Assembly (NCBI GenBank): GCA_010365215.1
Contig: JAAFGT010000018.1
Coordinates: 1-51,516 of the forward strand
Source of the DNA: Acidipila sp.
Lineage (GTDB): Bacteria > Acidobacteriota > Terriglobia > Acidiferrales > UBA7541
Reading direction: 5' to 3'
Length of the DNA stretch: 51,516 nucleotides
Position numbers and translations under genes: made by a program
Part shown: one piece after another, positions 9,123 through 12,134 of the stretch
Numbering within the stretch: position 1 is the stretch's first letter
Layout: every line of letters starts with the position of its first letter
The notes under the pieces: model-generated
Seen by the model: the letters and a program-made list of their open reading frames with translations, nothing else
What the model was told of the DNA's origin: nothing
The model's database searches: none

Positions 9123-9623
9123 ATGCATTTGCCGCTGATCATTCCGCCTGGATACGAGACTGCGGTCCTGCTGATTCTTTTGGCCGTGGTAGCTGCGGTG
9201 GGATTGTGTCTGGCGGCCGCGTGGATGCAGTTCAAGCTTCTCGAGGCGCAGCAGAGGGAGCTTAGCCTGCGAGTAAACGCCCAGCTACGCGACCAGTTCA
9301 GCGTCTTCAACGCGAAACTCAGCGGCCAGATGGTGAAATTCAGGCGGGAGCTGGAAGGCACGGAGCAGAAGCTGGAGGACAGCTTCCAGCGGAAGATGGA
9401 AGTTCTCGATGCGCTGTCGACGGGACTGATGTTGCTGGAACGCAGGCTGGGGCGATTTGTGGATACTCGATCCGTCTCCGGCTTTCTGGAAGACCTTAAA
9501 GAGGACACTCCCGCTTTTGAGATTCTCGATGGCGGCAAAAAGCCGATTGACGACGCCGAGCATTTAAGCGATGAAGATCAGGAACATCCCTCCGGTGAAA
9601 AATCTTCAGCAGTCCATAACTGA
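9123..9623 (+). CDS. Hypothetical single-pass membrane protein with coiled coil
   Basis: 166 residues of unknown function. One strong hydrophobic helix (residues about 14-35) is followed by a charged, heptad-rich helical region (about 36-115) typical of a coiled coil (LEAQQRELSLRV, FRRELEGTEQKLEDSFQRK). The C-terminal tail is acidic (DDAEHLSDEDQEHPSGE). The topology suggests an inner-membrane anchor with a helical domain on one side. It sits between the divergent purN and the convergent redox gene and belongs to neither operon. I recognise no family. A good promoter lies upstream at 9012-9040, which supports it being a real gene. Confidence 0.65.
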   Translation: MHLPLIIPPGYETAVLLILLAVVAAVGLCLAAAWMQFKLLEAQQRELSLRVNAQLRDQFSVFNAKLSGQMVKFRRELEGTEQKLEDSFQRKMEVLDALSTGLMLLERRLGRFVDTRSVSGFLEDLKEDTPAFEILDGGKKPIDDAEHLSDEDQEHPSGEKSSAVHN

Positions 9624-9667: not shown

Positions 9668-10252
9668 TCACGTCCGTGGGGAACGCAAGCCGAAACGGAA
9701 GGCTCCGCGAATGGCTCGCCACCAGTCACCGGGCGAGGCGAGCAGGAAGCGGCGGCGCGGTGAGCGCGGGCCTGAGCCAGCCGCAGGGCGCTGTAAATAT
9801 TCCAGCAGAGCTTTAGCGCCCACGCGATTGAATTCGTCGTCGAGCGAGCTGAATAGAACGCGACGGTCGCGGTCAAAAACCAAAGTCGCCGGAATGGCGA
9901 TCCCGCCTTTTTCATTGCGGGTGATCACGCCCCAAGTCCCGATGACCTCTCTGCGCGTGTCGCAGAGAATTGGAAACGGCAGCTGGTGTTCGCGGCGTAC
10001 CGCATCGGAGCGCACAGGCTCATCAACCGAAAGTCCCGCGAGGTCAAATCCCGCGTCGCGAAAGGCCGCGGCATGGTCGCGATAACCCGCCAACTGGCGG
10101 AGGCACATCGGTCACCAGTGCCCGCGATAAAGAACCAGGACGCGCGGGCGCTCGGCAACAAGTTGAGAGAGAGTGCGCGCCGCGCCAGTCGAATCGCGCA
10201 GCTCGAAATCAGCCACGATCTCGCCGGCTTCGGGGAAGTGTCCGTAGGCCAT
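9668..10252 (-). CDS. Candidate selenoprotein: peroxiredoxin-like (AhpC/TSA) redox protein with UxxC active site
   Basis: A 194-residue thioredoxin-fold protein if the in-frame TGA at 10112-10114 is read as selenocysteine (Sec47). Reading from ATG 10252, the N-terminal part gives MAYGHFPEAGEIVADFELRD and then RVLVLYRGHW. The TGA follows, then PMCLRQLAGYRDHAAAF. The family signature is RGxWCPxCxxQL, so the TGA falls precisely on the first active-site cysteine, with Cys50 as resolving partner. The C-terminal part is a normal Prx-like domain (LSVDEPVRSD, LPFPILCDTRREVIGTWGV, IPATLVFDRDRRVLFS). An in-frame TAA two codons upstream fixes the ATG. A stem-loop suited to SECIS function follows the TGA. 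It lies 50 nt downstream of purM on the same strand. SelA/B/C/D are not in the window. Alternatives: a nonsense mutation or a sequencing error. The start and both protein halves are directly visible; Sec insertion is inference. Confidence 0.8.
10087..10111 (-). promoter_or_regulatory. Putative bacterial SECIS element
   Basis: In the minus-strand mRNA, 11 nt after the UGA, CCGCC (10096-10100) pairs perfectly with GGCGG (10087-10091) around the loop AGUU (10092-10095). The U at 10101 just below the stem could be a bulge, with C10102 pairing to G10086. Bacterial SECIS hairpins lie immediately 3' of the UGA, carry a G-U in the apical loop and often have a bulged U below the upper stem. All three are present here. 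Confidence 0.65.
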
Positions 10253-10302: not shown

Positions 10303-11340
10303 CTACAAGGAAAGCTGGCCGGAATAGCCCACGCGAGGCTTGCCCGTTTCAATGCGTCCGATGCGGAAAAACTTCTCGCGCCGCCGCTTGAGCTCGGATT
10401 CCACTTTCTTCAGATTCTTGGGAGGTACCACCAGAATCATGCCGATTCCCAGGTTGAACGTGCGCAGCATTTCGTCACTCTCGATTTTCCCCAGCCCGGC
10501 CAGATATCCGAAAATGGGCAGCACGGGCCAGGTGCCCAGCTCGATCACCGCCTGAGTGTTGCGGGGCAGTACGCGCGGCAGATTGCCGGTGATGCCGCCG
10601 CCGGTGATGTGCGCCAGCGCCGAAACCCAGCCGCGAGTGACAATCGTCTTGAGTAGTGGCCAATAACAGCGATGCGGCTGCAACAGCTCGGCGCCAATTT
10701 TATTGTGCAGCTCGTGGACGTAGGTGTCGGGCTTGAGCCCAGCCACTTCAAACACCAATTTGCGCGCCAGGGAATACCCGTTGGTGTGCAGCCCGCTGGA
10801 AGGCAATCCAATCAGCACGTCGCCGGGCTTAACGGCGGCGCCATTCAACACTTTGCTGCGTTCCACTACACCGACGATGAAGCCGGCCAGGTCGTACTCC
10901 CCGGGTCCGTACATGCCGGGCATTTCCGCGGTCTCGCCGCCGATCAGCGCGCAACCCGCCAGCCGGCAGGCGCGGCTGGCGCCATCGATGATCTGCTCGG
11001 CCACGGCCGCATCGAGCGTGCCCATGGCCAGATAGTCGAGAAAAAAGAGCGGCTCAGCGCCCTGCGTAAGGATGTCGTTGACGCAATGATTGACGATGTC
11101 GCCTCCGACGGTCGAGTGCACGCCGGTGGCGAAGGCAATCTTGAGTTTCGTGCCCACGCCATCGGCGCTGGAGACCAGCACCGGATTGCGCCAGCGCTTG
11201 CGGTCGAGCGCGAAGAGCGCGCCAAACGAGCCGATGTCGGTGAGCACGCTGCGCGTGAAGGTGCGGCCGGCCAGATGCCGGATGCGCTGCTTCACGCGAT
11301 CGGCTCGGGAGATGTCAACGCCTGCGTCTGCGTAACGCAT
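10303..11340 (-). CDS. purM: Phosphoribosylformylglycinamidine cyclo-ligase (AIR synthetase)
   Basis: 345 residues, the ATP-dependent closure of FGAM to AIR in purine synthesis. Family motifs: YADAGVDI at the N-terminus, DGVGTKLKIAF, VNDILTQGAEPLFFLDYLA and GGETAEMPGMY. The start is ATG 11340, giving the family-typical length and N-terminus. The upstream in-frame extension to 11493 is Arg-rich and has no family similarity. It is downstream of lepB (125-bp gap containing a REP-like palindrome) and upstream of the selenoprotein candidate. Confidence 0.96.
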   Translation of the reverse strand: MRYADAGVDISRADRVKQRIRHLAGRTFTRSVLTDIGSFGALFALDRKRWRNPVLVSSADGVGTKLKIAFATGVHSTVGGDIVNHCVNDILTQGAEPLFFLDYLAMGTLDAAVAEQIIDGASRACRLAGCALIGGETAEMPGMYGPGEYDLAGFIVGVVERSKVLNGAAVKPGDVLIGLPSSGLHTNGYSLARKLVFEVAGLKPDTYVHELHNKIGAELLQPHRCYWPLLKTIVTRGWVSALAHITGGGITGNLPRVLPRNTQAVIELGTWPVLPIFGYLAGLGKIESDEMLRTFNLGIGMILVVPPKNLKKVESELKRRREKFFRIGRIETGKPRVGYSGQLSL

Positions 11341-11415
11341 CAGTATGCGATCCTGCCCTAGGTAATCCTGGTGTAACCCTGTCGCGAGGCGACTGTCGCG
11401 TCTTACCTTTTTTCT

Positions 11416-11442
11416 GCCGCCGGCTGGTGGCCGGCGTTTCCG
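11416..11442. repeat. REP-like palindrome, copy 2
   Basis: A perfect 7-bp inverted repeat (CGCCGGC / GCCGGCG) around TGGTG at 11418-11436, followed by TTTCC, in the lepB-purM gap. It resembles the palindromes at 6477 and 15876. On the transcribed (minus) strand the stem is followed by purines, so it is not an intrinsic terminator of lepB. Confidence 0.5.
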
Positions 11443-11465
11443 AAGACCCCGCGGAGAATCGCAGC

Positions 11466-12134
11466 TTAAAACGGCACGAACAGCCGCTCCCAACGCACCC
11501 GCCCGGGATGCAGGAACACCTGGCCGTAGGCGGCGAAGCGCTGGCGGATGTGTCCTGGCTGCCAGGCGTCGCCGGGCACGTCGAGCGATAGATAAATAAA
11601 TACCGGCGACCCGATGATGGAAGCACGCGGCACGTAACCCCAGAAGCGGCTATCCCAGGAATTATTGCGATTATCTCCCATCACGAAATAAGACTGCGGC
11701 GGCACGATGACCGGCGCGCGGTCTTCCCAGGTATTCGGCGTGTCGGGCAGATAAGGCTCGGCGAGCGGCTTGCCGTTGATCCACACGGCGCCGGAGCGGA
11801 TCTCCAGGCGATCGCCGGGCAATCCGATAACGCGTTTAACGTAATCAGGCTGGTTCGGTACGGGCGGGTGGAAGACGATCATCTGCTGTCGGCTGGGCTC
11901 GCGCCAGAGTGAGTGGTGCCAGCGCGTGAAGGGAACGCCAGCGTCGTAGCCGAAGCGGCTGACCAGAACGTGATCGCCGATCAGCAGTGTGCCCACCATG
12001 GATTCAGAAGGAATCACCCGCGCCTGCACCAGCGTGCCTTCAATAAACAGGAACGCGGCGAGCACCCACAGCCAGCCCAGCGCCTCGCGCTGCAAGCGCT
12101 GGCGAACGGTGGGGTTTTCGCTATTCGTGGCCAC
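11466..12134 (-). CDS. lepB: Signal peptidase I
   Basis: 222 residues, the membrane serine protease (S26) that cleaves Sec/Tat signal peptides. One membrane helix (about 20-38) precedes the catalytic serine in IPSESM (Ser45). The general-base lysine is in YVKRVIGLPGD (Lys100), and the conserved box GDNRNNSWDSRFWG follows. The likely start is GTG 12134, which overlaps the 3' end of purF by 14 bp. The open frame extends to 12461 inside purF, but that part is a shadow of purF. Placement inside the purine block suggests co-transcription rather than functional linkage. Confidence 0.93.
   Translation of the reverse strand: MATNSENPTVRQRLQREALGWLWVLAAFLFIEGTLVQARVIPSESMVGTLLIGDHVLVSRFGYDAGVPFTRWHHSLWREPSRQQMIVFHPPVPNQPDYVKRVIGLPGDRLEIRSGAVWINGKPLAEPYLPDTPNTWEDRAPVIVPPQSYFVMGDNRNNSWDSRFWGYVPRASIIGSPVFIYLSLDVPGDAWQPGHIRQRFAAYGQVFLHPGRVRWERLFVPF

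Follow-up and report, generated by a model that had tools for sequence, protein, structure and literature searches.

Prx-like proteins that carry selenocysteine (Sec) in a UxxC motif within an AhpC-TSA domain (PF00578) form a listed predicted selenoprotein family (PMC13188914, PMC9312934, PMC2398784). Peroxiredoxins lost the N-terminal Cys of the CxxC motif, and have an Arg where thioredoxins have a cis-Pro (PMC2757866). In Acidobacteria, four known selenoproteins from three families were recorded in 2006 (PMC1794560), and three selenoproteins were reported for one acidobacterial genome in 2025 (PMC12013277). Here we analysed an acidobacterial DNA stretch of 51,516 nucleotides (the window), in which a peroxiredoxin-like gene with an in-frame TGA had been proposed to encode a hidden selenoprotein. 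The original prediction regarded UxxC Prx-like selenoproteins as a class already known, in agreement with PMC13188914 and PMC2398784.

A conserved in-frame TGA and its probable decoding

The gene occupies 9668..10252 on the minus strand. Its frame runs from the ATG at 10252-10250 to the terminal TGA at 9670-9668 with one interruption only, the TGA at 10114-10112, and comprises 194 residues if this codon (residue 47) is decoded. The coordinates predicted for a continuous frame are therefore exact, and the Pfam AhpC-TSA match (residues 10-132, 8e-25, 87.6 bits against a cut-off of 26) spans the TGA. The in-frame TAA that was said to precede the start is present at 10261-10259, three codons before the ATG. 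As was also anticipated for ordinary gene calling, the one frame found by a standard ORF search is 9668-10108; it begins at Met49, past the TGA, and lacks the redox centre. No signal peptide was evident by eye. Past the AhpC-TSA domain, the product continues into a C-terminal tail (approximately residues 160-194, 9671..9775, minus strand) that is common to the subfamily and contains a helix at residues 174-187 in the AF2 model.

Relatives of the window gene, collected at E < 1e-40 from the 151 genomes searched, are 44-50% identical to it over the alignment. Among the matches listed, 11 relatives from independent genomes have one TGA each, always at the Sec47 codon (10112..10114, minus strand), so that TGA stands there in all 12 aligned sequences. 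All 12 encode UxxC, the motif around the TGA in the relatives being RG-x-W-U-[PA]-x-C and that of the window gene W-U-P-M-C. When 396 genomes from across the phylum were searched with a profile, two further relatives with the same TGA emerged, L078 and L080 (for L080, the TGA was read only from the stop count and the alignment), and no subfamily member with Cys scored above 200 bits. Because the same single codon recurs in the 11 relatives from independent genomes and in these two more, chance or sequencing error does not account for it, and the question of whether homologues keep the TGA is answered in favour of the prediction. Among remoter Prx-like relatives many have Sec and a few have Cys (L088, L039 and L045), and the Cys of these three sits at the W-[U/C] position, i.e. 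aligned with the in-frame UGA. A single-protein scan of genome contigs returned one distant Sphingomonas match only, and plasmid searches returned only distant peroxiredoxins.

The two sides of the TGA have evolved alike. Identity at the three codon positions is 0.69/0.76/0.40 upstream and 0.66/0.74/0.37 downstream. Three close relatives compared in pairs give dN/dS of 0.03-0.19 upstream and 0.11-0.18 downstream, values that all lie well under 1. Both measures bear out the earlier reading of family sequence in the same frame on either side. A value of 0.87 upstream of the UGA for L034 versus L078 was discounted, since this ungapped comparison crosses a one-residue indel.

A hairpin of the bacterial SECIS type, UCCGCC-AGUU-GGCGGG, is predicted at 10086..10101 on the minus strand, inside the region (10060-10120) in which such an element was to be sought. 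It is present in 12 of 12 aligned genes with a 6-bp stem, an apical AGUU loop and a spacer of 16 nt from UGA to loop, and its values (spacing 16, 4-nt loop with G at position 2, 6-bp stem, -9.3 kcal/mol) fall within every bSECIS constraint of PMC13188914. Across the 12 genes all pair cells are paired (72/72), with five further pair types; covariation amounts to one double change, C-G to G-C in L031, and 48 of 500 shuffles reach as much. The free energy is ordinary for such GC-rich sequence (z -0.31; synonymous resampling of the window gene, p 0.1) and was for that reason dropped as SECIS evidence; synonymous constraint and the fixed offset were used instead. Mean codon identity is 0.89 over codons 51-55, which form the hairpin, compared to 0.41 at 48 other conserved residues. 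Codons so nearly frozen indicate that the RNA is constrained, and not the protein alone. Furthermore, in several paralogues with different residues here (NSELR), the hairpin loop is still found at the same offset.

The genome of the window (G000; 4.1 Mb, 98% complete) has all four genes of the machinery whose presence had been named as a check. The tRNA-Sec has a UCA anticodon and scores 58.8 bits, where the gathering score is 47, and the family matches reach 545 bits for selA, 366 bits for selB and 366 bits for selD. The selD gene has one in-frame TGA of its own, whose context, AG-U-AAK, agrees with UxxK, the motif that PMC13188914 lists for Sec-containing selenophosphate synthetase. Of the 151 genomes searched, 125 have selA above cut-off. 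Among the AhpC/TSA matches listed, a TGA is present in 106 of 127 from selA-bearing genomes and in 0 of 14 from complete genomes without selA (Fisher p 3e-10, matches being counted without correction for shared ancestry). Six of the matches listed carry a TGA although no full selA match was seen in their genomes; these genomes are less complete, and the pattern is as expected if selA is merely unassembled there. Separately, the selA of G004, G038, G063, G065 and G141 gives a two-piece family match in a single frame, a pattern that a short insertion around model positions 140-160 would produce.

Given the conserved TGA, the sel set, the SECIS-type hairpin with its frozen codons and the selA association, the window gene very probably encodes a selenoprotein, with putative Sec at residue 47. 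SelB and the Sec-tRNA(UCA) would insert selenocysteine at the UGA, with the hairpin that closely follows it as their guide. Any lone in-frame TGA could instead be a sequencing error or the nonsense mutation that turned a CxxC gene into a pseudogene, and broader relatives with Cys do exist; this explanation is exceedingly improbable and was rejected given a TGA that is identical in the 12 aligned genes and two more relatives and is conserved across genera, purifying selection on either side of it, and the frozen hairpin codons. A changed genetic code or a suppressor, with UGA read as some other amino acid, would leave the frame open just as well under any UGA-sense code. Here the genome has a UCA tRNA-Sec with the full sel set, the tRNA-Trp found has a CCA anticodon, family members terminate at TGA, TAA or TAG near the same place, and broader homologues have Cys at the position; we give this reading next to no credence, and a changed code was rejected. 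It is also very unlikely that the UGA serves regulatory readthrough, with a short 46-residue or an internally started protein as the main product and the long form as a minor one. Sec insertion is generally incomplete, and in the window gene an internal ATG (Met49) opens a frame of 146 aa, but residue 49 is Phe and not Met in most relatives, and the residues upstream of the TGA are as constrained as the remainder.

A thioredoxin-type active site on a peroxiredoxin fold

The AF2 model of the selenoprotein (pLDDT 86) has a peroxiredoxin fold, with a structure match of Z 21.6 to 5epf (BcpB). The active site was mapped by profile alignments to five solved peroxiredoxins. In these alignments Cys50 (10103..10105, minus strand), which closes the UxxC motif, is paired with the peroxidatic Cys, a residue that is Ser in one chain of the five, and Sec47 is paired with the Thr/Ser three residues ahead of it. 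An invariant Arg43 (10124..10126, minus strand) stands at the Pro of the PxxxTxxC motif, and an invariant Pro121 (9890..9892, minus strand) at the catalytic Arg (AhpE R116). Thus, the protein has the canonical peroxiredoxin fold but neither the PxxxT/SxxC motif nor the catalytic Arg. Taken with the changes described for peroxiredoxins in PMC2757866, the placement of Sec47, Cys50 and Pro121 points to a UxxC centre of thioredoxin type carried by a peroxiredoxin scaffold. The original prediction had put the TGA at the catalytic cysteine, and this holds in the sense of a thioredoxin CxxC; it does not hold in the peroxiredoxin sense, since Sec47 aligns with Thr/Ser rather than the peroxidatic Cys and an invariant Pro takes the place of the catalytic Arg.

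With Sec47 at the Thr/Ser, Cys50 at the peroxidatic Cys and Pro121 at the catalytic Arg, a thiol/selenol-disulfide oxidoreductase appears likelier than a true peroxiredoxin, judging the role from these residues only. In the mechanism that we predict, and consider reasonably probable, Sec47 would be the exposed, low-pKa attacking residue and would form a mixed selenenyl-sulfide with a disulfide substrate, reaction with a peroxide being less likely. Cys50 would then resolve this intermediate to an intramolecular Se–S bond, and a cellular thiol reductant would re-reduce it; we infer the attacking role of Sec, the substrate and the reductant alike. The selenoprotein could also be a true thiol/selenol peroxidase, in which Sec47 or Cys50 attacks a hydroperoxide and the other residue resolves. 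Its fold is that of a peroxiredoxin with best matches of the BcpB/AhpE/PrxQ types, Sec is suited to peroxide chemistry, and two peroxiredoxins of the TxxU type are encoded in this genome as well. However, three of the four peroxiredoxin signature residues are replaced, invariantly (Pro by Arg43, Thr/Ser by Sec47 and Arg by Pro121), which makes a peroxidase possible but rather unlikely, and disulfide exchange remains our preferred activity.

Genomic neighbourhood and distribution

The purM gene (AIR synthase; 10303..11493, minus strand) lies 50 nt upstream of the Sec gene on the same strand, and a scan for a promoter-like site between the two, which is weak evidence, found none; they are presumably co-transcribed. 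The same order of purM and then the peroxiredoxin-like gene is found in G002 (L056), G045 (L057) and G053 (L060), with purF, purN and tyrS also in the same arrangement in G053. The adjacency that the prediction had singled out is thus confirmed in four genomes, which represent three genera, though most relatives have other neighbours, namely moaA, mraZ together with ychF, or unrelated genes. Since the purM-linked members do not group as a single clade, their linkage to purM could go back to the ancestor of the subfamily. The subfamily also has a patchy distribution, with members of different families nested among one another, which suggests transfer. A conceivable but doubtful reading is that this Sec-only subfamily, with its peroxiredoxin fold, thioredoxin active site and conserved C-terminal tail, ancestrally followed purM directly within the purine block and moved patchily from one bacterial family to another; its redox function would then be linked to purine synthesis or to the regulation of it.

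Other features were observed around the members. Among the close relatives L053-L055 (G049, G069 and G047), moaA is upstream of the Sec gene in L053 and L055, and a DUF6644 gene is just downstream of it in L054 and L055. In the window, a 166-aa frame at 9123-9623 on the plus strand lies between the Sec gene and purN, convergent with the former; it has no Pfam match, and the related loci gave no match to it at 1e-8.

At least five candidate Sec genes are present in the genome of the window, i.e. selD, the window gene, L068, L065 and L067. L068 (G000:C41:11005-11394) is a second UxxC gene (SADW-U-PFC). The frame around it encodes a long protein whose start resembles a signal peptide and which contains DUF5818, a Sec-bearing AhpC/TSA domain and a DsbD_N domain. 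Among the matches listed, many related genomes have frames of 440-500 aa with a single TGA. L065 (G000:C16:114896-115273) and L067 (G000:C83:37923-38306) are peroxiredoxins of the known TxxU type, with the TGA at the peroxidatic position (TSGU and TPGU). A check for formate dehydrogenase-type genes (PF01568) gave two matches, neither with stops.

Such Sec genes are truncated by ordinary annotation, and the called start of the window gene falls past the active site. The truncation is systematic in the lineage, where selA exceeds the cut-off in most genomes searched and most of the AhpC/TSA matches listed for selA-bearing genomes have a TGA. The subfamily is also a simple system in which to ask why a CxxC-type centre on a peroxiredoxin scaffold retains Sec at its first position.

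Comparison with described selenoproteins and peroxiredoxins

The closest described proteins are the Prx-like thiol:disulfide oxidoreductases (PF00578, UxxC/UxxU; PMC13188914 Table 1, PMC9312934), named 'Prx-like 1' in PMC2398784. The window gene has in common with them the AhpC-TSA domain, Sec in UxxC, a downstream bacterial SECIS and Cys homologues in the wider family. Unlike that class at large, the window subfamily is a group of its own, with members 44-50% identical to the window gene, has a C-terminal tail and, in some genomes, the purM neighbourhood, and no Cys member of it was found. All 12 members match the SelL-related redox protein model NF040769 (NCBIfam) weakly (best E 2e-15), the window protein scoring 30.5 bits against a curated cut-off of 120; it also stays under the cut-off with each NCBIfam model that it matches. 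BcpB, AhpE and PrxQ (5epf, 1xvw and 4gqc) share the fold of the window protein, with Z of 20-22 for 5epf and 1xvw, but have Thr/Ser and Arg where the window family has Sec47 and Pro121. The Sec peroxiredoxins with TxxU listed in PMC13188914 resemble the window gene in domain and in the use of Sec; in these, Sec replaces the peroxidatic Cys, whereas in the window family it stands three residues earlier. Unless they are described in Haft and Tolstoy 2025, what is new is the Sec-only subfamily, its C-terminal tail and the purM neighbourhood in four genomes. In summary, the window gene belongs to a known class, within which its subfamily is distinct.
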